Origin: Rhizophagus irregularis | Taxonomy: Eukaryota > Glomeromycota > Glomeromycetes > Glomerales > Glomeraceae | NCBI RefSeq assembly: GCF_026210795.1 | Contig: NC_089451.1 | Span: 1,286,001 to 1,350,000 of the forward strand | Direction of reading: 5' to 3' | Length of the DNA stretch: 64,000 nt | Shown: piece by piece, positions 15,347 through 30,773 of the stretch | Layout of the letters: each line of letters begins with the position of its first letter | Position numbering within the stretch: the first letter of the stretch is position 1 | Notes under the pieces: model-generated | Database searches by the model: none | Told to the model about the DNA's origin: nothing | What the model saw: the letters and a program-made list of their open reading frames with translations, nothing else | Made by a program: the position numbers and the translations under genes

Positions 15347-17931
15347 TCATCTTCTAATGATGATATCGCTGTTTAAAATTTTAAGCGCATCTAAAATCCA
15401 GTTGTTTTTCCTTTTACTAGTATTTGATATTTCGCCTGGACATTTCGAAGTCCAAATTTTGTTTTGCTCTTGGGTCATTTTTATTTTGAATATTATTTTT
15501 AGTTTTTCATTACCATTTGCCTGGTAATTTAAGTTTTTGCACAACATTTCTATTTGAAGATCGTATATGTGTTTAGCGCCTAATAAATCTTTTTCGTAAA
15601 TTATGAAATTAGGAGTTGACTTCGCTAAACCTGCTCTTTTCTTTATTATTGCATTGATCCTTGTCATCATTTTGTTGCATTCGTCTTTTGTCAGAACGAT
15701 TGCCGCCAATTGATATTCTATCCTTGGCATAATTACGATATTCCATACAGCGATAATCTGCTTTTCGTTCAATCTTTTCCAATTGAATATATTACATGCG
15801 CTGTTTATTATTGTAGTTATTTTTTTCTTATATATGGCTCTTTTATTATCGTGTCGAAAGAAAATTCCCAAGTATCTATTTCCTTCCTCATTGTTGACTT
15901 TTTTTATTTTTTCTCCTTCGATGACTAAATCATTGATCTTATTATTTATTTTTATGAGCTCGTATTTCGATATATTTGCCTTGATATCGTTAATCTTAAA
16001 GAACTGATGACATATATCTATCATTTTTCCTAATTGTTATTTGTTTTGACTAATTAATGTTGTGTCGTCCATAAATGCTGTGACGTTTATTGATATTTCT
16101 AATAATTCTTTTTTGTTATTTCCTTTATCAAATATTTTTTCCTCATGTAAGCTGTAACCCGTCTCTTCTTTTATTTCGTTTAATCTACATAAAAGCGCGT
16201 CATAAAAAATTCTCCAGAGTATTGGCGACCACACTTCGCCTTGGTCTATACCGTCTTCTACCTGATAACTTTCTGTTAGTTCGTTATTGACTAAAATCTT
16301 ATTTGATCTATTTAATGATATATCCATTACTAAGTTTATAAAACTTTTTGGCAATTTTATTCGTTCTAAACTTTTCTTTAACATTGTCGTGTTAACTGAA
16401 TCGTAGGCCTTGGATATGTCCATTAAAAGTATCCAAGCTTCTTTTTTGTAATTGTTAGCGTCTTCTATTATTGCTTGGATTATTTTAATCGGCTCTAACA
16501 TACTTTCATTTTTAAGTGCCGCAAAATTTGTGTTCGTCAATATTTGTTCTTTCGTTAAAATTTCGTTTAGCCTATTCACCAAAATTTTAAACCATATTTT
16601 CCTGGCTGTTTCTAGTAGAACTATCGGCCTCGTTAAACTTAGTTCTTGATTCCAATTGGATCTTGTAGTTTTATTGATCGGATAGATTATGCCTTTTTTC
16701 CATTCATCGAGTACATTTTCTTTGGACATGCTTTCATTGATAATTTCTAATAATATTTTCCTTGTCAGTATCTTGCTTTTCTTCCAAAAGTCGTATGGTA
16801 TACCACTTTGTCCTGGCGCTTTGTTTGTTTTTAAATTACTTAAAACTAAATCTAGTTCGTCCATTTCTATCGGATCCATTAAATTTTTATAAATTTCTTC
16901 GTTCACGTCTTCTTTAGGGCTATAAATCTCTCGCCATTCATGATTGAAATCTATTTCGTCCAGGTCTATTTCTCTTTTCCTCGTCCATCCTTTATAATGA
17001 TTTGTTACTATTTCTTTGATTACTTCTTGGTCTTTTTCGATCGTGATTTTATCTTTTTCTTTTATTATTAAGCTTGACATGTTAATTTTTCCTCTTTTCT
17101 TCTCTAAGATTCTATTTATCATTTTTCCTATATCTTCTTCTAAGTATAACTCTCTTTTCCTTATGTTAACTTCTATTTTTAGATTCATTATCTTTTCGTA
17201 AGTTTTTCTCATAATATCTTTTCTAGTCTTTGTTCTTTCTATTAATTCTTTTCTAAAATCGTATTTTCTTAATTTGTCTATTGTGATGCTGTATTTACTT
17301 CGTATTTCTATCCTGTCGTGGATTTTAATCAGATTTCTAATTTTAATTGCATTGAATTTTCCTGTGTCGCTCGTTCCCCATTCTTCTATTTCGATATATT
17401 TGTTGAATTCTTTAAAAGTGTATTCATATTGTTCTGAAGTTCTGTTTCTCCATAAACTCGTTATTACTTTGTCAACTATTTTCCTTATACCATGTTCGAT
17501 GTTATCTATTTTCTCCATGGTTTCATATTCATCTATTAAATTTTCGAGTTTTTCTTCGTTCGTTCTTTCTTCTTCTGGAATTGTTTTGTTATTCTTTCTT
17601 TCGTTTCTTATTGTCTTTATTTCTGCCAATCTTGTTTTTTTCTCCTTTCCGATTATCTCTACTATTTTGTCCCAAATTTGTTCTCTGTTTATTTGTTTTA
17701 TCATATTTCCATCTAAATTTTCTAGCTTTTGTTCCACTTTTTCCGTTATTATGTTCCAGTCGTCTTGCTCGAATTTTATGTGTCTTGATTCTTTTCTTAT
17801 TTTTCTAATGTGATCTAATCTATTTCTTTCAAGTGGTTCTTTTATCTTCATTTTGATCGTCAGTGCTTTGTGATCTGTCTCGAAGTCCTCTATATCCATT
17901 ATCTCATAACTTATAATTTCTTCAAGAACGC
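15347..17931 (-). pseudogene. LINE ORF2, 3' part: endonuclease end, reverse transcriptase and C-terminus
   Basis: This is the downstream half of a non-LTR retrotransposon polyprotein. The last endonuclease motif TDHKAL is near 17870. RT motifs follow in order: NKAPGQSGIPYDFW (~16800), motif A MDISKAYDSV (~16420), motif B GIDQGEVWSP (~16240) and motif C AFMDDTTLIS (~16060). One TAA at 16037-16039 interrupts the frame just after motif C. The same frame resumes (QLGKMIDICHQFF) and runs 225 codons to a stop at 15347. Upstream the frame is cut at 17931 by the 10.8-kb element; the rest of ORF2 continues in the same frame at 28707 and above. Apart from the insertion and one stop, ORF2 is intact, so it decayed recently. 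It would nick target DNA and prime reverse transcription. Confidence 0.85.
17928..17931. repeat. Left target site duplication ACGC
   Basis: ACGC directly before TGAGATCC; the matching ACGC follows the right end at 28703-28706. Removing the element and one copy joins GAAG of the upstream LINE half to GCGTTCTTGAA in frame. Confidence 0.85.
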
Positions 17932-18067
17932 TGAGATCCCCCAATTCCCCCTGTCATCAATTTACAAGGTTGCCACATCGAACGGGCATTCTCATGGTCA
18001 AACGAACGAATGCCCGTTCGATGTGGCAACCTTGTAAATTGATGACAGGGGGAATTGGGGGATCTCA
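17932..18067. repeat. 136-bp perfect palindrome at the left terminus
   Basis: Arms 17932-17991 and 18008-18067 are exact reverse complements (60 of 60). The 16-nt loop is TCATGGTCAAACGAAC. The palindrome starts TG and ends CA. Two bases after it, TGGTGCATGCTCCGAGA could be a primer binding site for a tRNA 3' end; the CTCGG implied in the complementary tRNA fits a T-stem. The right terminus has only one arm plus the loop sequence. Confidence 0.9.
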
Positions 18068-19702
18068 TATGGTGCATGCTCCGAGAAAGGAAATGATCAT
18101 CATCACATGATTATTATTAACATGAAAATTTAATTTCGTTAGTAAGTCACTGATAGGTATTATTAATCAATATTTTATTTTTAGAATTTATTTTTAGATT
18201 TCAGGTTTTGACGAGTTCAAAAGGAACCAATAAATCAATGAGGATTTAACGAGTTAAAAACTTGAAAAGGCGAAAGATTGGAGTTTGGAGTTGTGCAAGT
18301 AATCACTTAATCGATAGAAAGCACAAGAATGTTTCTTTCGGGAATAAAGTACCTGAGAAATTTCATAAGGAGATGTGGAAGTTAAAGATGGATTTTAGAA
18401 TAAAGATTAATAATGGAGAACACCAATGTATTATCCGGGGTTCATCTGTGTGGTATGGGTTACCTCTGAGTTTGGATTTTGGATAAATGCTCGAAATTGG
18501 AAAATTTTTATTCTTCGACATTAAAGATTATAACGTATGGGTTACGTCAAATCTGGATACCCAGCTCAATAACACGTGAATTGCTTTGGGGACGGGGAAT
18601 GAAAATTGTAAAGACACCTACTATCAAGAAACATTGGATGGATAAAATGGGACAAACCTGTAAACTATCATGCTTTGACCGAAGGGTAAAAGATAGAGAT
18701 AAGCTCAGTATAGGTCCACCAATTTAAGAAAGTTGGTTTAGATGAGTTTTATGGATAGCAGATGACTTTCGAAACTGGATTTCAGAAGATTAGATTCACC
18801 CGTTAAGAGACGAGTCGGCCAACGAAGGAGGAAAAGACGGATATGTTGTATTGTTACAGGTCCTAGACTACATTTCAGATGAGGGTTCCTGGTGTAGTGT
18901 TCTAGTTCACGCTTTCATTACAATGTTCCGTTAAAAGAAGATAACAGAGAAGGATATTTACACATTAACGAGCCGTATAATGAACATTACGTGCAGTATT
19001 TAATAATAGAGTAAAATTTGAAAAAGAACATTTATTTAAAAAAGAATATTTATTTGAAAAAGAACATTTATTTAAAAAAGAATATTTATTTGGAAAAAGA
19101 ACATTTATTTGAAAAGAAGGACATTTATCTGAAAAGAACGACATTTTATGCGTTATAGATTAATTTATATAGTATAGAATATATAGAGCAAGAAGGATTT
19201 ATGTGGACGATAAGAAAGATTGGAAATTCGCAAACCTTAAAACTCCAAAATTTTCATAAAGTTTGTGATATGTGAAATTATGGATCTTGGTGACAAAAAA
19301 GTGTGACAAAAAGATGTGACAAAAAGATGTGACAAAAAGAGGTGATAAGTGAAATTAGGAATTACGGTGACAAAAAGATGTGACATGTAAAATTAGGGAT
19401 ATCGGTGATAAAAGATAAATTTTAGGGCGCAGTAAAAACCTCCGCAGCCTGAGGAGATCGTGGACTTAGAAAAATTTTTGAAACTTTAAGGCGCAGCAAA
19501 AATTAATAGTAAAATATGGCATAGTGAATATATAGAACCGAAAGATGGAATTTAAAGATTGGAAGAAGTAATCTATTCAAAGATAAAAGAATGTTTAGAA
19601 GATCAAAAATAGAAATGATAAGAGCGAAATATATATATATAGAGAGAGGAGTCCGATTGAAATTCTGGATGGATATTCATAGCAATTTAACTAAAGCATA
19701 CA
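18068..19702 (+). other. 5' leader of the element with two short tandem repeats
   Basis: No frame longer than 82 codons and nothing recognisable. Tandem repeats: GAACATTTATTTAAAAAA/GAATATTTATTTGAAAAA units at about 19018-19150, and GTGACAAAAAGAT units at about 19295-19340 with a weaker return at 19368. GGCGCAG occurs twice (19425 and 19490). A TATATATATAGAGA stretch at about 19629 lies 70 bp before the gag ATG. No sequence here matches the 3' LTR-like region as a direct repeat, by eye. Confidence 0.5.
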
Positions 19703-22700
19703 ATGGAATGGTACCATCAATGGGAAAGCGAATATAGAACACATAAAGAGGAACACGAATTAGGAACGGAAGAATTGGACGAATGTTTAAATTGTGAATT
19801 ATGTTATCCAATAGTAGATGAACCAATAGTATTCAAGAAATTTTGGGATGCATTATTTAAATTTGAAGATGCAATAATAATATATAATGATGTAACAATT
19901 AAGGGAGTATTAGATTTATTAAGTATGAATAATTCAGAAAGAGAAGATACAATACATAAAGGGAAATGTAGAGACATAATGGATAGAATAACGGAATCAA
20001 TAAGATATAGAATACAACCAAAAATGAAAGAAAGGGGATTACGAACAATTATATTAGTAATTGTAAGAGATTGTATTGAAAGAAATCTGGGGAATGAAGT
20101 ATTTGATAGATTAATTGGGAATCCTGAATTAATAGAACACAAATATATTTTGGAAGATTGGGATGTTGAAAGAAGGTTTGAGAAATTTTGGCAATGGTAT
20201 AGAATCACATCAAAAGAAATTGGACCATTACGAGTAAAGACAGGAGCAACAGAGACGTTTAGGGAGTTACTATATGAAGAAGAAGGAATAGCTATGAATG
20301 AGGAGAAAGTAAAGGAACTAATGTCCAAAATAGAATATGAGAACATACATATAGAAAATGTTCACGAATATCACAAGAATATGATGCAAAAGATAATAAG
20401 AATATTTATAGATACTAGGGGATTTACAAAAGAACCAGAAGATTCAGAAAGTGAAGATAGTCCAGCAAGTTACGAATTGGAAAATGATTCCGAGGAAGAA
20501 TTAGAGATAATAATAGGAGATAAATCATGGAAATTTAGTGAATTAAGAAGAAGGTCAAATGTTATGGATGAAGATCAACTGAGGTACATTTGGAAGATAG
20601 GAATAAAGTTGATGATAGAAATGGATATATTGGTAACGAGAATATTTATGGATAAAATTCAAGAGATAGAGGAATTGGATGAAAGGGAAAAAGAATTGAG
20701 GATAAAAGAATGGTTAGAAAAAGAAACAATAAGATGTGAAAAATGTGGTAATAGAAGGTTCGAAATGGACGAAGCGGATAGCGAATGCGGGGAATGTGTT
20801 AAAGAAGCGCAGAAGAATGAACAAGATGAGCTAATAGAATTAAGAAACAACTTAGAAAAATTGGGATATGAAATAGATGTGTCAGAAATTCAAAGAATGA
20901 AGAGTTTTGGGATAAATAATCGAATAATAGTAACTAAAGAATTTGTGGAAGAATATATGGAAATGATAGATTTGGAAGATAAAGAATTAAGAAAAGAAAT
21001 TCATAAGTGGTTGAACAAGAATACAACTTGGTGCGAAAGATGCGAAATAAGATGGATGAATGATATGTTTAGATTAGGATGGATGGATGATATGTCTAGA
21101 GTAAGAGGAATGGTATGCAAAGATTGTGAAGAAGAAAATATCGATGAAATTGATGATCGGGTAAAAAGATTACAGAAGATTTTTGAAGATATTGGAACAA
21201 TAATAACTGAAGAAGAATTGTTGAGATTAACTAGTATGGGATATACAGATGGAGAAATTTTAGATAAAGAATTCATTGAAATCTTTCAAGAAAATAAAGA
21301 TGAGTCGGAAAAAGAATTGAAGAAAAAATTAGATAAGTTGTTGAAAGAACAAGCGGGAATAATAGATAGTGAAGAAAGTGGTGAAAGAAGCGATAATGAA
21401 GAATCAGAAGAAGATAATACAGATGATTCAGAAAAGATTGGAGAAATACTAAGTCCGGATGAAAGATGGGATGAAGATATTGAAAATTTTAACGAAGAAG
21501 AGTTTGAAGATGAAGTTGAAAATGTTATAAATAGAGGGGATAGCGACTTAAGTCAAAACTCAGATACGAATAGTTCATTGAATATTAAAAATTCTGACAA
21601 CGAAAGTGAATTATCTGATTACAATTTACGAGATTTATTCCAAGAGAATATATTAAATATGGCAACTGAGAACCAAATAAAAAGAGTAATAGAGAATGCT
21701 TTAGGTTATCCAGCTAATACTTTGAACGCAGCAGTAGGAGCAGGAGGAAGTTTGATAGAAAGGATCGAAAATGCAGGGAATGAAGCAGGAGGAACAATTA
21801 GTATACCACTCTTTTATGGAAGAGAAGATGAAGATGTTACCGATTGGGTTAGACAATTCGAGGTAGCATTTGCAGCAGTCGGAAAAGCAGCGGGAGCTAA
21901 TGGCGTAAGACAAGCGGTATACGCAGCAGCACATTTAAGAGGGGCAGCAGCACAATGGTATAATGAAATGAAAGAAGTAAATGCGGGTCACTTAGTGAAT
22001 TGGGCAGATGCAGATAATGATAATGATTTAAAGCATAGAATAAAAAGGAGATTTACCAGAGAGGATGTTAGAAGAAAGAAAATGCTAGAATTAAGAAAAA
22101 CTCGACAGGAAGTAGATGAAAGTGTTGAGGAATACACAAGAAGATTTAGACAAATATTAAGAATAGCAACTAGGGGACATGCCTTAGCAGATGAATATCA
22201 AGTAGATTTTTATATCGAAGGATTAGAACCAACAATAGGGTATCAAGTTAGAAGACAGAATCCAGGGAACTTAAATGGGGCAATAGAAATAGCAGTAAGA
22301 GAAGAAGGTGCAAAGGACGAATTTATTAGGAAAGCAATAGGACAGCCAATTAGTACAAGGATAGACACCGGAAAAGATGATAATAGACAGAATATGTTCG
22401 CAAAACCATTGAACGAAAATTATGAGGACGAATTAGCTGAAATGCTTAAAGAAAAGGCGAAAATTAGTAAATTAGAAAGAATGGTAGCAAATATGGAGAG
22501 AAGATTAAATGACGATAATAGGAATAGGTATCGACCAAATATGGGAAGGAGATTAAATAATGGTAATAGGAATAGTTATCAACCAAATCAGAATAGGGTA
22601 CCAACGTGTTTCGGATGTAATAGAGTGGGGCATTACAGGAATAATTGTCCCGAAGGAAGGAATGCAAGAGTAAATATGATAGACGAATATGATGATCAAG

Positions 22701-23296
22701 AAGAATATTATTATGATGAATATGGATACGAGGAACCACAATATAACGGAATATATTACACACAAGGCTATTATGATGATTATGAAGATGGAGAATTAAA
22801 TTATCATAATGAATTATACGCAAAAGATGACGCAGTAAAAGGAAGAAGACAATCAAGAAGAACGAGTCCAATAGTGGGATATAAAAATAATAATGAAGAG
22901 GGAAATTTACAAGAAGAATTAAGGGAAGCAGGAAATAGAATGGATGATAGAGAAATACCAAGTGGTACAACGGCACCAAGTTATATACCTGAACGAACAG
23001 AACAAAACGGGGGTAGACCAATAGGACCAAAAGGAATGAGATGGAGTAATAAAAGGCAAGCTTATTACGACCCAACAGAAGGATTAAGAAAATGGAGAGA
23101 AGCAGGAGGACCAACAAAGCCCAGGGAGTATGGACCAAGATTAACTGACGGAATACCACCTTATGATATTGTGGAAGACGTGAAAAATTGTAGAGCGAAT
23201 ATAACATATGGACAATTAATAAATGGAAATGCTAAGTATCATAAACAATTAAGAGAAGGAACATATAGACCAAGAAGTATAAATGAGAAAAATTGA
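19703..23296 (+). CDS. gag: Gag polyprotein with a long zinc-ribbon N-terminal extension
   Basis: Encodes the particle protein that packages element RNA. It is 1197 codons from an ATG, far longer than usual Ty3 gags. A retrotransposon gag domain starts near residue 700 (LFYGREDEDVTDWVRQFEVA) and ends near 870. A CCHC knuckle has C969, C972, H977 and C982. A conserved IVEDVKNCRANITYGQLI tail precedes the stop. The first ~650 residues are unusual: CxxCxxC at 28-34, then repeated units of acidic helices ending in CxxC ribbons (C345/C348 with C362/C365; C444/C447 with C472/C475). A third unit lacks the ribbon, and a very acidic stretch follows (~560-640). Ends in TGA followed by CTA, in frame with the protease, so readthrough is likely. 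The extension may be an added domain or an ancient fusion. Confidence 0.85.
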   Translation: MEWYHQWESEYRTHKEEHELGTEELDECLNCELCYPIVDEPIVFKKFWDALFKFEDAIIIYNDVTIKGVLDLLSMNNSEREDTIHKGKCRDIMDRITESIRYRIQPKMKERGLRTIILVIVRDCIERNLGNEVFDRLIGNPELIEHKYILEDWDVERRFEKFWQWYRITSKEIGPLRVKTGATETFRELLYEEEGIAMNEEKVKELMSKIEYENIHIENVHEYHKNMMQKIIRIFIDTRGFTKEPEDSESEDSPASYELENDSEEELEIIIGDKSWKFSELRRRSNVMDEDQLRYIWKIGIKLMIEMDILVTRIFMDKIQEIEELDEREKELRIKEWLEKETIRCEKCGNRRFEMDEADSECGECVKEAQKNEQDELIELRNNLEKLGYEIDVSEIQRMKSFGINNRIIVTKEFVEEYMEMIDLEDKELRKEIHKWLNKNTTWCERCEIRWMNDMFRLGWMDDMSRVRGMVCKDCEEENIDEIDDRVKRLQKIFEDIGTIITEEELLRLTSMGYTDGEILDKEFIEIFQENKDESEKELKKKLDKLLKEQAGIIDSEESGERSDNEESEEDNTDDSEKIGEILSPDERWDEDIENFNEEEFEDEVENVINRGDSDLSQNSDTNSSLNIKNSDNESELSDYNLRDLFQENILNMATENQIKRVIENALGYPANTLNAAVGAGGSLIERIENAGNEAGGTISIPLFYGREDEDVTDWVRQFEVAFAAVGKAAGANGVRQAVYAAAHLRGAAAQWYNEMKEVNAGHLVNWADADNDNDLKHRIKRRFTREDVRRKKMLELRKTRQEVDESVEEYTRRFRQILRIATRGHALADEYQVDFYIEGLEPTIGYQVRRQNPGNLNGAIEIAVREEGAKDEFIRKAIGQPISTRIDTGKDDNRQNMFAKPLNENYEDELAEMLKEKAKISKLERMVANMERRLNDDNRNRYRPNMGRRLNNGNRNSYQPNQNRVPTCFGCNRVGHYRNNCPEGRNARVNMIDEYDDQEEYYYDEYGYEEPQYNGIYYTQGYYDDYEDGELNYHNELYAKDDAVKGRRQSRRTSPIVGYKNNNEEGNLQEELREAGNRMDDREIPSGTTAPSYIPERTEQNGGRPIGPKGMRWSNKRQAYYDPTEGLRKWREAGGPTKPREYGPRLTDGIPPYDIVEDVKNCRANITYGQLINGNAKYHKQLREGTYRPRSINEKN

Positions 23297-23299
23297 CTA
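23294..23299 (+). promoter_or_regulatory. Leaky stop context UGA-CUA between gag and protease
   Basis: The gag stop TGA is followed directly by CTA, the classic eukaryotic readthrough context. The downstream protease is in the same frame and its ATG comes only six codons later, at 23315. Confidence 0.6.
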
Positions 23300-23809
23300 C
23301 ACTCGGTGGGAACTATGAAAGATGAAGAAAAAAGAACTACAGCAATGAGAACAGAATTAGAAGTTGAAGATCAATTAGTGAATGTAATAATAGATACCGG
23401 AGCAGCAGTAAGCGTGATAACGGATAAATTAAGAAGAAGATTGAATATACCTATATTTGGAAAAAGTAAATTTAGATGTACAATAGCAAATGGGCAAAAG
23501 ATAGCAGCGTTAGGAAAGGCAAATATAACTTTAAGATACAAAGATGAATTAGAAATACTAAAAGAAGTCGAAGTAATCGATTCAGAAGAAGAGGATCTAA
23601 TTTTGGGAAATGACATATGGAAGTTGTATAATGCAAAAATAAATTTTGAAGATCATACCTTAAGAATAGAAAAACAGGGAGAAATAATAACGATCCCAGT
23701 AGGATATGAAAGAAAAGCAATATATGAAAGCGAAGAGAGTGAGGACGATGAAGAATATGAAAGTAACGATGAGGGAGAGGTATTCAAAATGCACCAGAAT
23801 TTTAAATAG
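23297..23809 (+). CDS. Retropepsin-type aspartic protease
   Basis: Processes the polyprotein. The catalytic triad is IIDTGAAVSVITDKL; counting from the GTG at 23306, D30-T31-G32. The flap region follows (TIANGQKIAALG), and the ILGNDIW motif near residues 97-103 is the usual C-terminal hydrophobic-Gly signature. The frame is the same as gag, so it is probably made as a gag-protease readthrough product; independent starts would be GTG at 23306 or ATG at 23315. The C-terminus is acidic (EESEDDEEYESND). It ends with TAG at 23807-23809, again in the same frame as the RT that follows, so either a second readthrough event or a nonsense mutation separates it from pol. Confidence 0.85.
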   Translation, partial: LHSVGTMKDEEKRTTAMRTELEVEDQLVNVIIDTGAAVSVITDKLRRRLNIPIFGKSKFRCTIANGQKIAALGKANITLRYKDELEILKEVEVIDSEEEDLILGNDIWKLYNAKINFEDHTLRIEKQGEIITIPVGYERKAIYESEESEDDEEYESNDEGEVFKMHQNFK

Positions 23810-25924
23810 AGAGTCTTGGCTCTGAAGAGAGAGACGGAAAAGATGCTCGAACCAAGTGAAAAATTTATGCAAAAATTAAGTATAGGGAAAGTAGAAGAAC
23901 CAATTTGGGAAAATATGGTAAAATTATTATTAGAATACCAAGATATTTTGGAATATGACAAAGAAATAGAAGGGAGAACAAAAGCGGCGCAACATGAGAT
24001 AAAAATAAAAGATGGAGTAGAACCGATAAAACAAAGAAGATACAAGGAAACAGACGAAAAGGCAAAATTTATAAGCGAAGAAGTAGATAAGTTATTAAGA
24101 CAAGGAAGGATAAGAAAATCAAAAAGTCCGTGGAGTTCACCGGTTACATTAGCAGGAAAGAAAACGGGAAAATATAGATTCTGTATTGATTACAGAAAGT
24201 TAAACAAGATAACTATAATGGATAGTTTTCCTTTACCAAGAATGGATGAATTGTTAGACAAATATAGAAAAGCAAAATGGTTTTCAAGCATAGATTTAGC
24301 AGCAGGATTTAATCAAGTAGAAATGAAAGAAGAAGACAAAGAAAAAACAGCATTTGTATGTTCAAAGGGATTATTTGAGTATAATGTAATGCCATTCGGT
24401 TTAACGAACGCACCAGCAACATTTCAAAGATTAATGGATGAAATATTAGAAGAATACATAAATGATTTTGTGGTAGTATATATCGATGATATTATGATAT
24501 ATTCGGAAAATTTAGAAGACCATATGGAACATGTGGAAAAAGTATTAAAGAAGTTACAGGAGAATAATTTAATAATAAAATTAAAGAAATGTAGATTTTT
24601 GGAAAGAAATATAGAATTTTTAGGACATATAGTAGGAAATGATGGATTAAGGCCAGACGATAAAAAGATAGAAAAGATAAAAGAAATGAAGGCACCAACA
24701 ACGGTGAAAGAAGTAAGATCATTTTTAGGACTTTGTTCATATTACAGAAAATTCGTGAAGAATTTTTCAAAGATAGCAAGACCAATAAGTGATTTAAGAA
24801 AGAAGGGAATACCTTTCATTTGGGGAAGAGAGCAACAAGAAGCGTTCGAAAAGTTGAAAGAAAAGTTAATACAATATCCAATATTGCGACATCCAGATTG
24901 GAAGAAAGAATTTTTATTAATAACAGATGCATCAGGGAAAGGATTAGGTGCAGTATTAAGTCAAAAAGATGAAAAAGGAAAAGAAGTAGTAATAGCATAC
25001 GCAAGTAGAAGTTTATTACCAGCAGAAGAAAATTATCCGATAACAGAATTGGAATGTTTAGGAATAGTTTGGGGAATTCAACATTTTCATAAATATTTAA
25101 TCGATAGAAAATTTAAAGTAATAACAGATCACAGTGCATTAAAAGGATTAATGAATGCAAAAATACCAAAAGGAAAAAGAGCAAGATGGGTAATGGAATT
25201 ACAGCAATATAATTTTGAAGTAATACATAGATCGGGAAAAGAAAACACGAACGCCGACGCATTAAGTAGATTATTAAAGATAGTAGAAGATCAACCAGAA
25301 ATAGTAATAATCGACGGAGTAGATGGATTAGGAAAAACAAGTATAGTGCAAAATTTAATTGGAGAATGGGAAAAACAAGGATTAAAAGTAAGATTCAATA
25401 CTTATAAAAGAAGAAGAAAAGACAAAGATGAATTTTATGAATCAAAGATGGATACAGAATGGAAATTCAGAAAAGAAGTAGTGGAACAAATAAATAGAAG
25501 AATGTTAGAATATGATGAAGATACAGATATAATAATTTTAGACAAATCACCATATTGTGAATATTATTATCAAAAGACGAAAAGTTTTGACAGAGGATTA
25601 ATTACTCCGCATGGAAATCATGAGATGGAAAAAGAAATATTCAGATTGAAAGAAACAATAGATAAATCAATAGTGATATTTTTAGAAAAAGATGGCAATG
25701 TATGTTGGGAAAATTACATTGGGAGAGAAACAAAGAAAACGGAAAAATCATCATATCCAACATTAAAGAAGGATGAATATTTGGACATGGTTAAGATGTT
25801 TGAAGAAAATCAGAGTGTGTACAAAGATACCAAAAGATACAGTCGAGTAAAAGTTAAAAATGACAATAGTAGTTGGAGAAAAGTATTTAAAGAGGTGGAA
25901 AAATGGAGAAAAGTACAGAATTAA
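23810..25924 (+). CDS. pol: Reverse transcriptase-RNase H fused to a thymidylate-kinase-like domain
   Basis: Open from the codon after TAG; there is no ATG at the start (TTG at 23816 is used for numbering). The RT has FCIDYRKLNKIT, FSSIDLAAGFNQVEM (D160), FGLTNAPATFQRLMD, and YIDDIMIYSEN (D224, D225). RNase H has LLITDASGKGLGAVL (D371), TELECLGIVWG, VITDHSALKGL and NTNADALSR. After a short linker comes an unrelated P-loop domain from about residue 492: GVDGLGKTS (501-509), then DKSPYCEYYYQ (576-586), and a basic GRETKKTEKSS segment like a LID. This order matches the dTMP kinase/deoxynucleoside kinase fold (inference from motifs). Ends with TAA at 25922-25924. A host-derived kinase at the RNase H-integrase junction is not a standard Ty3 arrangement. 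Confidence 0.85.
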   Translation, partial: RVLALKRETEKMLEPSEKFMQKLSIGKVEEPIWENMVKLLLEYQDILEYDKEIEGRTKAAQHEIKIKDGVEPIKQRRYKETDEKAKFISEEVDKLLRQGRIRKSKSPWSSPVTLAGKKTGKYRFCIDYRKLNKITIMDSFPLPRMDELLDKYRKAKWFSSIDLAAGFNQVEMKEEDKEKTAFVCSKGLFEYNVMPFGLTNAPATFQRLMDEILEEYINDFVVVYIDDIMIYSENLEDHMEHVEKVLKKLQENNLIIKLKKCRFLERNIEFLGHIVGNDGLRPDDKKIEKIKEMKAPTTVKEVRSFLGLCSYYRKFVKNFSKIARPISDLRKKGIPFIWGREQQEAFEKLKEKLIQYPILRHPDWKKEFLLITDASGKGLGAVLSQKDEKGKEVVIAYASRSLLPAEENYPITELECLGIVWGIQHFHKYLIDRKFKVITDHSALKGLMNAKIPKGKRARWVMELQQYNFEVIHRSGKENTNADALSRLLKIVEDQPEIVIIDGVDGLGKTSIVQNLIGEWEKQGLKVRFNTYKRRRKDKDEFYESKMDTEWKFRKEVVEQINRRMLEYDEDTDIIILDKSPYCEYYYQKTKSFDRGLITPHGNHEMEKEIFRLKETIDKSIVIFLEKDGNVCWENYIGRETKKTEKSSYPTLKKDEYLDMVKMFEENQSVYKDTKRYSRVKVKNDNSSWRKVFKEVEKWRKVQN

Positions 25925-25927
25925 AAT

Positions 25928-26186
25928 ATGGAACAAATAATAAAAACAACGGATTCAGAAATAGAAGCATCAATTGAAGCATTAAGAAATATTCAAGAAG
26001 AAATTATCAAATTAAAGGATAAAAACAGGAAGTTAGGTAACATAAAATTGACGATTGGAACGAAAGGGAAGAATCATCAATTAAAGAAATACAGGAGGAG
26101 ATAATAAAAATAGAGATAGCCATAGGTAGAACGGAAATATACAAAGAAATATTATGGAAGAAAATAATTACAAAAGAATAATTGAC
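25928..26186 (+). pseudogene. Short coiled-coil frame between pol and integrase
   Basis: An ATG three bases after the pol stop opens MEQIIKTTDSEIEASIEALR, rich in heptad-like I/L/E/K. After about 38 codons the helical character moves to another frame (EEIIKIEIAIGRTEIYKEIL), which reaches a TAA overlapping the start of the integrase frame. This suggests a small coiled-coil protein of about 85-90 residues with a single-base indel, or a translational shift. The near-overlap of pol stop and ATG could allow reinitiation. Function unknown; a spacer or multimerisation role is possible. Confidence 0.4.
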
Positions 26187-27380
26187 AATATCGAAAAAGA
26201 AAATAAGTATGAATTGAAAGAGGGAATTTTATATAGAGTAAAAGGACAAAACAAATTTAGAGTAATCAGGGATTATGAATACGAGGGATTAATGTACATG
26301 ATGCACGATAACGAATTATCAGGACATTTTGGGATAGAAGCGACATTAGATAGAATAAAAGAAAATTATTGGTGGAAAAATATGAAAGAAGATGTAGAAG
26401 AATATGTAAGAACGTGTTGGAATTGTCAAATGAGAGGAAAACCAAGAGGAAAGAACGAATTAATACCAATAAGAATAAATGAACCATTCGAAATGATTGG
26501 GATAGATATAGTTGGACCATTAAAAGAGACGGAAAAGGGAAATAAGTATATTGTAGTAGCAATGGATTATTTTACGAAATGGCCCGAGGCCGCACCACTA
26601 AAAGAAGCTACAGCGAAAGAAGTGGTAGAATTTATTTGGAGAGACATAATTTGTAGACATGGATGTCCAAAGAAAATAATTAGCGATAGAGGGACTCACT
26701 TTAACAATAAAATGATGGAGGAATTAGTAGAAAGATGTGGGATAAATCATAGATTAAGTACACCATATAGGCCACAAACAAATGGTTTGGTCGAAAGATT
26801 CAATAAAACTTTATGCGAAGGATTAGCCAAATTAGGAGAAGAAAACTGGGATAAACATATACCATCCGTATTATTTGCATACAGAACAAAGAAGCAATCG
26901 TCAACAAGAATTAAACCTTTTTATGCAACATACGGAAGGAGAGCGAAATTACCATTAGACAAAGATGAAAACAAGATAACATTAGCTGATAGAGTAAAAA
27001 TACTAATTGAGAAGCTACCAGTAATAAGAAGAAAAATAAAAGAGAACGTGGAAGAAGCTCAAGAAAAACAAAAACAACAACATGACAAAAGAGGAATTAG
27101 GAAACCTAAATTTGAAATAGGAGAAAAAGTATTATTATACGAAGCGTGGAGAGAAAAACAATGGTCTGGAAAATTACAGAACAAATGGAAAGGACCATAT
27201 TTAATTCACGAAGAATTTGGAAATGGGGCATATAAACTCAAAGAATTGGATGGAAGAATACTAAAGACTCCACAAAATGGAGAATGGTTAAAGAAATTTT
27301 ATGATCGAGGGAGATTTACACCAAAAATAGTAATTAAAGGAAAAGAGGTATTCGATAAGACCCGAGTTCGATTCGATTAA
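26154..27380 (+). CDS. Ty3-type integrase
   Basis: Inserts element cDNA into DNA. N-terminal HHCC zinc domain: H51, H58, C88 and C91 (CWNC). Catalytic core DDE: D118 in GIDIVGPL, D178 in IISDRGTHFNN and E214 in RPQTNGLVERFN; D178 and E214 are spaced by the canonical 35 residues. A GPY/F-like module (KWKGPYLIHEEF) lies near the C-terminus; I see no chromodomain. The frame differs from RT and an in-frame TAG precedes the ATG, so in this copy the integrase is not part of the RT polyprotein. It needs its own start or a frameshift product. The 408-codon length is normal for the domain. Confidence 0.9.
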   Translation: MEENNYKRIIDNIEKENKYELKEGILYRVKGQNKFRVIRDYEYEGLMYMMHDNELSGHFGIEATLDRIKENYWWKNMKEDVEEYVRTCWNCQMRGKPRGKNELIPIRINEPFEMIGIDIVGPLKETEKGNKYIVVAMDYFTKWPEAAPLKEATAKEVVEFIWRDIICRHGCPKKIISDRGTHFNNKMMEELVERCGINHRLSTPYRPQTNGLVERFNKTLCEGLAKLGEENWDKHIPSVLFAYRTKKQSSTRIKPFYATYGRRAKLPLDKDENKITLADRVKILIEKLPVIRRKIKENVEEAQEKQKQQHDKRGIRKPKFEIGEKVLLYEAWREKQWSGKLQNKWKGPYLIHEEFGNGAYKLKELDGRILKTPQNGEWLKKFYDRGRFTPKIVIKGKEVFDKTRVRFD

Positions 27381-27442: not shown

Positions 27443-28621
27443 GAAGAGGGGGATAATGTAAACGGCCGAACATCAAGTACGAAAAGAAGATAAAATTCAA
27501 CCGCCAAATGTAAATTATCAAGTATTAAGAACGAACAAATTAATCATGGATTGGCGTGGATGGATAAATAATTAGCCGAAAAGGATAAACATTTAAGAAG
27601 AGTAATGATCTACATGATGTAATATTTATTGAATGATTGACAAAGAACCAATAGGATAAATAGAGTCGATCATTTGCGGCTTAGCGATCTTTAATAATAA
27701 GAACGATTAGAAAGAATAATTATAAGCCACGAAAGATAGATTATAGGCAAAACACACAAAGTGGATTAAAAGAACATATAAAATAATTTCGGAAAGATTA
27801 AAGAACACAAAATAATATAAAAGATAATATGAAAAGATGGCATAAAGATGGAATATAAAAGATAACATATTAAAAAGAACATATATAAAAGATAACACAG
27901 CCACAAAAGATGAATTATATCTTTACGACATAATATTTGAAAGATTGTTTTAAAGAAAAGATAGCACAGCCATAAAAGATGGGTTATAAATTATTTCTTT
28001 ACGATGTAATATTTGAATAATAGAAAAGATAATATATAGAATAATATATAAGATAGCATATTAAAAGATAGCGTATTTAAAATATAGATAGTATATTAGA
28101 AAGATAGTTCAAAGATAATATGTAAAGAATATAAAAGATAGTATATAGATAGAATAGAAAGTAGCATAAAAATTGTATATATAGAGAACGGAATTCAAGG
28201 TAATTCCTTAGTTCGCATCCACAGAACTCAATAAAATATAAGTTTCATTTAATTATTCGTTAATGAAGTTTAATATTAATTAAAGGTAATAGGTTCGCCC
28301 TAAACTTTAATTAATGTTGGATTAATTAATTTTTAATCAATGAAATTTTAAGAAGATTTAAATATATGTTTTGAAAAGTGATAATTCGTAGCGAGAGCTA
28401 TTGAATTTTGAAATTAAAGGTAAAAGTGGATATAATTTGAGGAAAGAGGAGTACATTTTATTTTATATCGTTTAATGTTTTATATTACTAACGCTATTTA
28501 TTTTGTGAACCAAGAATGTTGTCGTTATATGTTGTATATGTTGTTGTATGTCGTTGTTAATCATGTTGTTAATTAATTGCTCACTCGTTTAATTGTTCGT
28601 TCGTTCGTTTGTTTGTTCGCT
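27443..28621 (+). promoter_or_regulatory. 3' non-coding region resembling one LTR (polypurine tract, TATA, poly(A) signal)
   Basis: The purine tract GAAGAGGGGGA (27443-27453) precedes TGTAAACGGCCGAAC, as at the start of a 3' LTR. Further on, TATATATAG at about 28176 and AATAAA at 28230 are spaced like the promoter and poly(A) signal of an LTR. I cannot find the matching 5' copy at the left end. The middle (about 27780-28160) is degenerate AAAGATA(A/G)CATAT-type repetition. CGTT/GTTC tetranucleotide repetition fills 28580-28626, up to the right TIR. Confidence 0.5.
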
Positions 28622-28702
28622 CATTCGTTCGTTTGACCATGAGAATGCCCGTTCGATGTGGCAACCTTGTAAATTGATGACAGGGGGAATTGGGGGATCT
28701 CA
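28622..28702. repeat. Right terminal inverted repeat, 81 bp
   Basis: Exact reverse complement of 17932-18012. Its inner part is the inverted loop sequence GTTCGTTTGACCATGA, its outer part the 60-bp arm ending GGGGGATCTCA. The LINE frame reads into it by chance and stops at 28621. Confidence 0.9.
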
Positions 28703-28706
28703 ACGC
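28703..28706. repeat. Right target site duplication ACGC
   Basis: Matches 17928-17931; see the element entry. Confidence 0.85.
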
Positions 28707-29400
28707 CTTCGCTTAAGAAAATAAAATCTATTCTGGACGAATATTCTCCACTCCTCCAGGTATCTAGCATATCTTTCTCCGCCGTCAGACATTCGTGAAC
28801 ATCTTGTAAGCCATGTTGTTTTATTGTCGCTGTCAGTGGTCTTTTCTTTTTCTTTTTTTTGTCATTGGCTGATTCGTTAAAATCTCCCAGAATTATCATT
28901 TCGTATTCTAGATTTATGGCCTCGTTCATCCATTTAGCTATTTTTGTTTCTATCAAGGTGGTTGTTGGTTTGTCATCATTTGGGTTATATATACCTATTA
29001 TTCGAATGTTCTTTTGGTTTCCTCTGAATAAAATGTCTAATTTAATCACGTGACCGTCTATTTTTTCTATCGCGTATCTTCTATCGTTAATTTCTTTCCT
29101 TAGTAAAATTATGAGCCCATTTTTTGTATTTTCATTGTTGTAGCTACTATTAATGCATTCGTAATCTTTCCAGTCGCTATATATATGTTTACCTTTTGAT
29201 TCTTTGAGTTTAGTTTCGCTGATTATTGCTATATCCCATTTTTCTTTTCCCAAAAAATTCCTTATTTCTCCTTGTTTTTTTATATCATTCATTCCCCTTA
29301 CATTTATACAACCTATTTTAATATTGTTATTTTTTATTTTTTGTTCATTTTCCCATTTTTTTCCTTTTTTATTTTTTGAATTTTTTCCATTTTCCTTCTT
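28707..29400 (-). pseudogene. LINE ORF2, 5' part: apurinic-type endonuclease domain
   Basis: Endonuclease/exonuclease/phosphatase fold that nicks target DNA for LINE integration. Motifs in order on the minus strand: KIGCINVRG (~29310), AIISETKL (~29225), IIGIYNPND (~28990), MIILGDFNE (~28885) and SRIDFIFLSEG (~28725). The frame then enters the inserted element's TIR. The final motif of the domain (TDHKAL) is 10.8 kb away, at 17870. Removing the insertion joins the two parts in frame, so the domain was complete before the event. Upstream of about 29400 the same frame is a low-complexity threonine-rich reading that overlaps ORF1; it is probably not protein. Confidence 0.85.
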
Positions 29401-29461
29401 TGCGCTTTGCGTTATTTTTCCTTTTCCTGGCTCTTCCAGAGCCTTATTACTTTCTCTTTGG

Positions 29462-30773
29462 TTAATATTGTCCGAAATATTGGTGTCGTCCTGCTCCTGC
29501 TCTTCTTTCATATTGGTCTCTCTGTTGATATCTATTGTTGTATCCATTGCTTCTTCTATTTCCATTTCTGTCGTTGTCGTAATCGTCGTCTCCTCCGTTG
29601 TGGTTGTTGTAGTAGTTGTCATTGTTGTTGTAGTGTCTATCTTGTTGATCGTATTGGTCGTGTTGTTTGGTGTTATTGTATCGATTTCTTCTTCTTCCAA
29701 ACTCATTTTTGTCAGTTCTTTTATTAAATCTTGGGTTGTGTCCTCTTCCGTCTCCATTATATCCATTTCCATTATATCTTCCGAAGTAATTATTTCTTTG
29801 TCTATTATTGTTTCCTTTCTGTTGTCGAAAAAAATTTCCTTCGTCGTCGTATCTGCCTCTATTGGGTTGTGTGTTGTCATTCCAATTGTTCCTTCTCGCA
29901 TTTCTTTCATCATTATCTCTTGAGTTGTTGAAATAACAATCTGCCGTTTTGTGATTTGTTTTCTTGCAGGTGTTGCATCTGTCATTGTTGTAATTTCTGT
30001 TATTTTGCATTTCTCAAAAGTTTCTATTAAATCCCCTATATCCTTTTCAAAAATTGTCATTTCTTCCGTCATCGGTCCAAAAAAACCACGTAAATATTTG
30101 TTCTCCTATTTTTATTTTCTTGCTAGTGGCTCTTTTTCTTTCTTCTTTATTGTTAAAATACGTGATGAGTTTGTATGTTCCGTTTTTGTTATCGTTAAGC
30201 TTATACCAATATCTTGCTCCTGCGTCCTTCAATTGTTTGGTGAATTCTGTTTCATCGATTTCAAATGGGATGTCGATTATGTTTGCACTAATTCTTCCCC
30301 ATTGGTTAATCACGTTATTTTTGTAGTTCTCCGGTGCTACTTTGATTAGTCTTCCATTTACTAAAATTCCCCAAGTATTCATTAGTTTTTCTTCCGTGCA
30401 TTTTATCCTCATTACTATTCTCATGTTGACTATTCCTCGTATCTTATCTTTTGTTTTGATGTCTATTATTTTCCCTAATTTCTTCTCTAGTTCTTTCATC
30501 ACTTCGTCTATATCTGTATGTTTTTCGTCTATGCCTGTTATAGACATTGTGATGTCTTTGTTTAATTTGTTTAACCAGTCTAGATCTTTGAACTGTCCTA
30601 TGCCGGCTATAACTCTTCCGTCTTTTATAAAGTTGTTTTTGGCTGTTTCGGTGAAAAATCCTACATATGTGTATTCGTTACCATGTCTTGTTATTTTCCC
30701 TAATGTGTTCACGTGATATTCTAGTAGTTTATTAGAGTTAATTATTTCGATTATTGATTGGTCTGTTATTTTT
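29462..30773 (-). pseudogene. LINE ORF1 with CCHC zinc knuckle, two homopolymer frameshifts
   Basis: RNA-binding protein of the LINE. The N-terminal 220+ residues (from about 30773; no ATG found, GTG at 30712) are basic and have an RRM-like look: YVGFFTETAKNNFIKDGRVI, then GARYWYKLNDNKNGTYKLIT. At a T7 run near 30085 the protein continues in the next frame (GPMTEEMTIFEKDIGDLIET). Near 30010 it shifts again into MQNNRNYNNDRCNTCKK. A CX2CX4HX4C knuckle, CNTCKKTNHKTADC, is at about 29930-29975, followed by an Asn/Arg-rich tail ending at 29462. Two shifts in homopolymer tracts indicate decay, sequencing error, or less likely programmed shifts. The LINE 5' end is near 30775. Confidence 0.75.

Follow-up and report, generated by a model that had tools for sequence, protein, structure and literature searches.

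A kinase domain between the copying and inserting enzymes of a Ty3/gypsy retrotransposon suggests that the element helps supply its own DNA building blocks

A Ty3/gypsy retrotransposon lies between about 17.9 and 28.7 kb of a 64,000-nucleotide stretch of Rhizophagus irregularis contig NC_089451.1, here called the window (G000:C23:1286001-1350000 in our searches of this genome of 146.7 Mb and 32 contigs). Its pol region carries a P-loop kinase domain with the predicted fold of thymidylate kinases (TMKs) and deoxynucleoside kinases (dNKs). A single clade with three diverged lineages carries the domain, which keeps near-invariant motifs, evolves under purifying selection and has been exchanged as a module. 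We propose, with a probability of about 0.6, that it is a captured and functionally retained nucleotide kinase, most likely turning thymidine monophosphate (dTMP) into the diphosphate (dTDP) and so raising the supply of deoxynucleoside triphosphates (dNTPs).

The open frame from 23810 to 25924 has 704 codons and contains reverse transcriptase (RT; Pfam RVT_1, 3.8e-45) and RNase H (RT_RNaseH, 2.9e-37). It runs uninterrupted from NADALSR (25250-25270) through GVDGLGKTS and DKSPYCEYYYQ to a TAA at 25922-25924, the kinase being encoded, stop excluded, by 25286-25921. A first-pass annotation made from the sequence of the window had placed the domain start at 25290, about right, and had read GVDGLGKTS, DKSPYC and a basic LID-like stretch after NADALSR within some 200 residues; all three are there, in a domain of 212. 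Its description of a kinase behind RNase H in one frame holds for lineages A (that of the window) and B, not for lineage C, in which the domain is fused ahead of the integrase. The frame is not a product of chance, given at least 150 genome matches, 93 homologous proteins, purifying selection and a confident fold.

Conservation was counted in two alignments, both of which include the window: homologues aligned to the profile, with 143 rows drawn from 137 entries and counts that differ by position, and R. irregularis kinases, with 50 rows that represent 45 distinct places. Of the homologue rows, 110 of 112 have the Walker A lysine K17, as do 48 of 49 R. irregularis rows, and 103/109 homologue rows have the P-loop acid D13. 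Further along, the homologues preserve D86 (116/119), K87 and Y90 (119/119 each), Y95 (118/118) and Q96 (116/120), and in the LID-like stretch R147 (111/113), E148 (110/113) and K151 (105/113). All 50 R. irregularis rows have D86, K87, Y90 and R147. Walker A and the LID-like stretch are conserved across copies, a check that the annotation had named.

Type II TMKs have a P-loop without a basic residue and with an acid at its third position. The loop of the element fits the TMK pattern GxxGxGK[ST] and has its acid at that position. The second motif follows the spacing of the TMK motif DRYxxSxxAYQ and keeps its Asp, Tyr and Gln; the spacing D-[RK]-x3-[SC]-x3-Y-Q recurs in all eight bacterial TMKs compared. 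The loop after strand 2, FNTFKRRR, is strongly basic, and its KRRR would suit a phosphate-bearing acceptor. We favour a deoxynucleoside monophosphate kinase, with dTMP as first choice, because of the P-loop acid shared with bacterial TMKs, the basic KRRR loop and the TMK spacing. In dNKs, the corresponding motif is ERSxYS and a catalytic Glu after strand 2 acts as general base; the element has DKS in the motif and FNTFKRRR in the loop.

The predicted model of the domain has a mean local confidence (pLDDT) of 92.8 and a global score (pTM) of 0.89, and gives the TMK fold, which is common to dNKs; the structure prediction suggested by the annotation thus came out in its favour. The best 50 rows of a VIA structure search are all TMKs, dCK/dGK, AbmG cytidine kinase or Giardia dAK. 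The best 50 of Foldseek are mainly TMKs and dNKs, together with adenylate kinases, YorR, BSU20280 and NadR.

Searching the R. irregularis genome with the kinase gave at least 151 matches, 150 of them listed, whose spans and stops were counted by eye. Among those listed, 130 cover at least 190 of the 212 residues; 102 of these have no internal stop, 10 are broken or unclear, and 18 have one stop, all within an 84-86% subfamily. In the four copies of this subfamily that were checked (L021, L046, L048, L049), the stop at residue 211 is the natural end. The ratio of nonsynonymous to synonymous substitution (dN/dS; Nei-Gojobori, pooled over pairs, bootstrapped over codons) in lineage A is 0.073 for the kinase (0.039-0.118; 20 rows), 0.036 for RT-RNase H (16 rows) and 0.105 for the integrase (18 rows), the identical rows L006, L008, L009 and L010 being in this lineage. 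For the seven distinct loci of lineage B the values are 0.098 (0.065-0.145), 0.124 and 0.140, and for seven loci compared between lineages 0.156 (0.099-0.216), 0.165 and 0.214, the latter set being rough because synonymous sites are close to saturation. Ranked against RT-RNase H and integrase, the kinase thus has the middle value in A, the lowest of the three in B and the highest in C. It is under purifying selection (dN/dS well below 1) within each of the three lineages and between them, a subfamily with a swapped kinase standing apart. Together with the 102 stop-free copies, this speaks against the random decay that the annotation had named as grounds for giving it up.

Architecture was compared at 20 related loci, which were picked for holding the kinase and so cannot show how many gypsy elements are free of it; an RNase H search of the genome finds many further gypsy places outside the listed kinase matches. 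RT-RNase H is found at 19 of the 20 loci and the integrase at all, in the order RT-RNase H, kinase, integrase, and gag and protease are unbroken wherever the fetched stretch covers them. In lineage A, RT, RNase H and kinase share one frame and the integrase occupies another. Lineage B likewise has all in one frame up to the kinase, with a linker of about 75-80 residues ahead of it. In lineage C, kinase and integrase form one 600-residue frame, separate from RT-RNase H. Swapped subfamily excluded, the three lineages share 62-70% identity in RT-RNase H, 54-65% in the kinase and 53-63% in the integrase.

Lineages A, B and C are recovered alike in trees of RT-RNase H, kinase and integrase (15 rows), apart from one strong conflict: L021, L022 and L046 fall with B by RT (100/99) and integrase (100/99), but their kinase places them with A (100/99). 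In blocks of 30 codons, the identity of L022 to the window is 57-82% in RT-RNase H, 82-92% in the kinase and 54-76% in the integrase; against L024 the figures are 78-91%, 64-80% and 61-88%. The conflict and the identity profile show an exchange of the kinase domain alone. In the RT tree, 15 kinase-side rows (including P0130 and P0137, with partial kinase) are set apart at 100/100 from the gypsy elements L056-L058 of the same genome, an outgroup of three in which L056 and L057 are near identical and whose kinase-free status follows from absence among the listed matches. The simplest history would be one acquisition before the split of A, B and C, then vertical inheritance with occasional domain exchange.

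Several observations weigh against our proposal. The Arg of DR[YH]xxSxxAYQ is absent: the element has DKSPY[CS]EY[YF]YQ, with Lys at the Arg position in all 119 rows, and ERSxYS, the motif of dNKs, is likewise similar to DKSPY-[SC]-E-Y. In the structure search, dNKs score the same as TMKs. The window domain reaches 16.3 bits with Thymidylate_kin (PF02223), under the curated cut-off of 27, which two relatives reach (P0069, 27.4 bits; L054, 27.7 bits); of the four places listed in a PF02223 search of the genome, one (L054) belongs to this kinase family. Across 12 members, AAA_28 has the better best E value (2.9e-7, 11/12 members) compared with Thymidylate_kin (9.5e-6, 12/12). With hhalign, the comparison to bacterial TMKs is confident (91.5%) for the P-loop region only, while a mixed TMK/dNK set aligns over 141 columns at 94.1%, one true dNK at 10.2% and adenylate kinase at 37.3%; the method does not separate TMK from dNK, because the six-row "dNK" set includes TMK-like rows. 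With a dN/dS of 0.156 (0.091-0.252; five loci), the kinase of lineage C is under weaker constraint than RT-RNase H (0.031) or integrase (0.088); the swapped subfamily has a kinase value of 0.33 (0.14-1.09; five loci, with too few changes for a verdict). 

As for the dNK family PF01712, it does not appear in the list of 11 families for the window domain or in the best 25 of 51 for the 12 members, weak matches having been filtered out. Among sequences of solved structures, the best profile match (E 0.0026) is the P-loop region of FtsY, and the best single-sequence match has E 0.02. The annotation's interpretation thus stands in part: the TMK/dNK fold is upheld by prediction and Thymidylate_kin does match, though under its cut-off and with Lys for Arg.

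A salvage kinase acting on thymidine or other deoxynucleosides, instead of a monophosphate kinase, would have the same fold and a similar DKS motif, but the acid of GxDGxGK sits at the TMK position, the basic FNTFKRRR loop has no recognisable Glu general base of the dNK kind, and the Y-Q spacing matches TMK; we consider it unlikely. We think it rather unlikely too that the substrate is no DNA precursor at all (nicotinamide riboside, a signalling nucleotide or a nucleic-acid end, for instance), the enzyme serving host manipulation or the processing of RNA or cDNA. NadR, YorR and adenylate kinases among the best Foldseek rows, the AAA_28 matches and the NUDIX domain of some relatives agree with such a role, NUDIX being common to NAD, cap and dNTP metabolism. 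Yet the best VIA rows are all TMKs or nucleoside kinases, and the domain adjoins RT-RNase H in lineages A and B.

That the domain is no longer an enzyme, and serves as spacer, tether or neutral baggage, appears improbable. Walker A is lost in some copies (GPDGTEKS in L032, GVNGTGET in L040), fragments are many, and the swapped-subfamily dN/dS is compatible with neutrality; however, RT or integrase is disrupted as well in L032 and L040, the catalytic Lys, Asp and Arg hardly vary across divergent lineages, and dN/dS stays well below 1 in A, B, C and between them. Retroelements are known to take up host genes, as described in PMC4299795, but a gene newly captured by the window copy alone, or an assembly artefact, has next to no probability: copies are many, on many contigs, and the spread over records of R. 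clarus, R. diaphanus and Glomus cerebriforme, besides presumed metagenomic ones, refutes it. Recent capture from the host TMK-like gene at C13:3242213-3242981 is rejected because its P-loop (GCDKAGKST) and motif (DRYAYSGVSY) differ from the GVDGLGKT and DKSPYCEYYYQ of the element.

The A1 profile recovers 93 homologous proteins at E ≤ 0.01 among 7,999 scored candidates, and a full-length lineage B query has 36 protein matches; P0009 matches at 97% identity. The organisms named are R. irregularis, R. clarus, R. diaphanus and Glomus cerebriforme, the last, like Rhizophagus, in the Glomeraceae; the remaining homologues are presumably mostly metagenomic. Outside these fungi and the presumed metagenomic records, no sequence relative was found. 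IMG/VR gave no confirmed relative with A2 and the NUDIX-kinase P0095 as queries, 50,697 phage records gave none, and in a collection of 84,980 prokaryotic species the one match was weak (26% across residues 3-84). By sequence, these viral, phage and prokaryote collections thus offer no convincing relative, and we set aside a source in viruses or prokaryotes on that basis.

In five presumed metagenomic relatives (P0084, P0095, P0096, P0100, P0101), a NUDIX domain is fused ahead of a kinase of this family, a nucleotide theme that we count in favour of the proposed nucleotide kinase. The NUDIX of P0084 is above the Pfam cut-off (5.5e-8), and its kinase is 35% identical to that of the window; none of the 115 listed matches of P0084 in the R. 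irregularis genome extends into the NUDIX part. L054 (G000:C6:4452986-4456141) is a decayed copy of the kinase; the flanking sequence, about 1.5 kb on each side, has no significant match to RT, RNase H or integrase. Its relatives P0024, P0044 and P0049 are frames of about 263 residues with an initial Met, perhaps stand-alone kinase genes. At L052 (G000:C24:3288271-3288729), a TMK-like stretch with the degenerate P-loop GCEDTNTT lies downstream of what is by eye an HMG-box-like region; it may be an inactive TMK paralogue.

Table 1. Features of the Ty3/gypsy element in the window (LTR, long terminal repeat; ORF, open reading frame).
Feature	Position	Strand	Basis and remarks
Inverted copy of the final ~80 nt of the LTR (fold-back end)	17932..18013	-	Left end of the element; self-match
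5' LTR remnant, last 60 nt	18008..18067	+	100% identity to 28643-28702
5' untranslated region	18068..19690	+	Opens with candidate primer-binding site TGGTGCATGCTCCGAG (inferred from sequence)
Gag frame: long N-terminal extension, Retrotrans_gag/Ty3_capsid, CCHC knuckle; stop TGA	19691..23296	+	ORF list, Pfam
Aspartic protease frame; stop TAG	23297..23809	+	ORF list, Pfam; frame common to gag and pol
Reverse transcriptase and RNase H	23810..25285	+	Pfam
TMK/dNK-fold P-loop kinase domain, 212 residues and TAA stop	25286..25924	+	
Walker A GVDGLGKTS, domain residues 11-19	25316..25342	+	
DKSPYCEYYYQ, residues 86-96	25541..25573	+	Spacing of TMK motif DRYxxSxxAYQ
LID-like basic stretch RETKKTEKSSY, residues 147-157	25724..25756	+	LID inferred from position
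Integrase frame (H2C2 zinc finger, rve core), different reading frame	26130..27380	+	ORF list, Pfam
3' LTR, TG...CA, 1246 nt	27457..28702	+	LTR matches at other copies; end from self-match

The assignment of the element to gypsy rests on an RT-RNase H with the integrase behind it and gag and aspartic protease ahead. It has a complete 3' LTR and a 5' LTR cut to 60 nt; LTR pairs are found at other copies (for example C7:5292782-5293954 and 5301963-5303141). The start of the 3' LTR is drawn from other copies, whose presumed 5' LTRs match from query base 7-8 (27456-27457) and 3' LTRs from base 1. The candidate primer-binding site is also present in other copies, on C29 and C2 62 nt past a full LTR match. 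ACGC at 17928-17931 and again at 28703-28706, outside both element ends, is a candidate 4-bp target-site duplication. The left end (17928-18067) is a fold-back in which the inverted LTR end (17932-18012, a 100% minus-strand match to 28702-28622) stands ahead of the 60 nt that remain of the 5' LTR, which suggests integration of a cDNA whose U5 end formed a hairpin.

Some 700 residues of the gag frame (19691-21800), acidic by eye, precede the capsid domain. They are partly conserved in other lineages, where tblastn matches start at residue 313; the CCHC knuckle scores under the Pfam cut-off. A single TGA (23294-23296) and a single TAG (23807-23809) divide one gag/protease/pol frame, as if by stop read-through; the protease-RT junction is different in lineages B and C, often in another frame. 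At G000:C11:4643594-4656385, LTR matches recur every 5.81 kb with the kinase in both gaps, a tandem of elements with common LTRs. A frame resembling an endonuclease of long interspersed nuclear elements (28621-30105, minus strand; assigned by eye) adjoins the right end, and the gypsy copy may be nested in such an element.

The element shares with Ty3/gypsy elements (Metaviridae) the order gag, aspartic protease, RT, RNase H and integrase, the TG...CA LTRs and the candidate target-site duplication. It differs in the kinase between RNase H and integrase and in the long gag extension, and the window copy also in its single gag/protease/pol frame with stops TGA and TAG. Compared with bacterial-type TMKs (PF02223; S. 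aureus, Aquifex, Thermus, M. tuberculosis), the domain is under the cut-off, has Lys for Arg in the DR motif and is fused to RNase H or integrase, and its substrate is a prediction. From dNKs (PF01712; human dCK/dGK, Giardia dAK) it differs in the P-loop and the loop after strand 2, in which we recognise no Glu base.

The closest precedents are dUTPase domains, which PMC5408684 and PMC6431247 describe at several pol positions in the bdelloid elements Juno, Vesta and TelKA, in basidiomycete and planarian elements and in some retroviruses, in line with the annotation's remark that retroelements carry them. There as here, an enzyme of thymine-nucleotide metabolism is borne within pol; the present one is a P-loop kinase and not a pyrophosphatase, with another fold, metabolic step and pol position, and by analogy may be its functional counterpart. 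Other enzyme domains in LTR elements or retroviruses are an AlkB-type m6A demethylase in orchid Ty3/gypsy (PMC9289625), a GDSL esterase in rotifer elements (PMC5408684) and the captured protein kinase Src of Rous sarcoma virus (PMC4299795), none a nucleotide kinase. The word "kinase" is absent from the main text of four accessory-domain papers searched. In the available portions of two papers on R. irregularis transposable elements (PMC11075540, PMC8647823) the kinases mentioned are protein kinases, and a term search of PMC10640383 had no match. Within a literature search whose scope excluded subscription papers and preprints, we found no nucleotide kinase reported in an LTR element (dUTPase, AlkB, GDSL and captured host genes being nearest), and nothing linking either Rhizophagus or a gypsy retrotransposon with thymidylate kinase, or a retrotransposon with a thymidine kinase domain. 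By titles and abstract beginnings, none of the papers found that mention both retrotransposons and deoxynucleoside kinase concerns an element-borne kinase. An accessory nucleotide-metabolism enzyme in a retroelement is thus already known; the nucleotide kinase, with a strong case for its retention, appears to be new.

For the proposed dTMP kinase, we envisage the following pathway. The kinase would be made as part of Pol, probably freed by the protease, and would remain with RT in or near the virus-like particle; its place in pol suggests delivery into the particle together with RT. It would phosphorylate a deoxynucleoside monophosphate, with dTMP to dTDP as the likeliest reaction, and the nucleoside-diphosphate kinase of the host would supply the triphosphate (dTTP) from there. 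The outcome would be more dNTP for reverse transcription of an AT-rich element (about 70% AT) outside S phase. More tentatively, the clade may keep an exchangeable nucleotide-metabolism cassette in pol, letting the particle make, and perhaps clean, its own dNTPs, so that the element could be copied in dNTP-poor, non-dividing hyphae and spores. This wider idea draws on the presence of the kinase in all three lineages found, its swap as a unit between two of them, its position on either side of the frame break and the NUDIX joined to it in relatives.

Outside S phase, reverse transcription is held back by the supply of dNTPs, a weakness that hosts exploit by draining them, as with SAMHD1. The known element-borne answer to these limits is dUTPase, which excludes uracil. 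Several database proteins called "thymidylate kinase" are domains of transposons. If our proposal is true, a kinase that makes precursors would be a different kind of answer, under selection in a diverged clade, and it would make testable whether retroelement particles carry their own dNTP synthesis.
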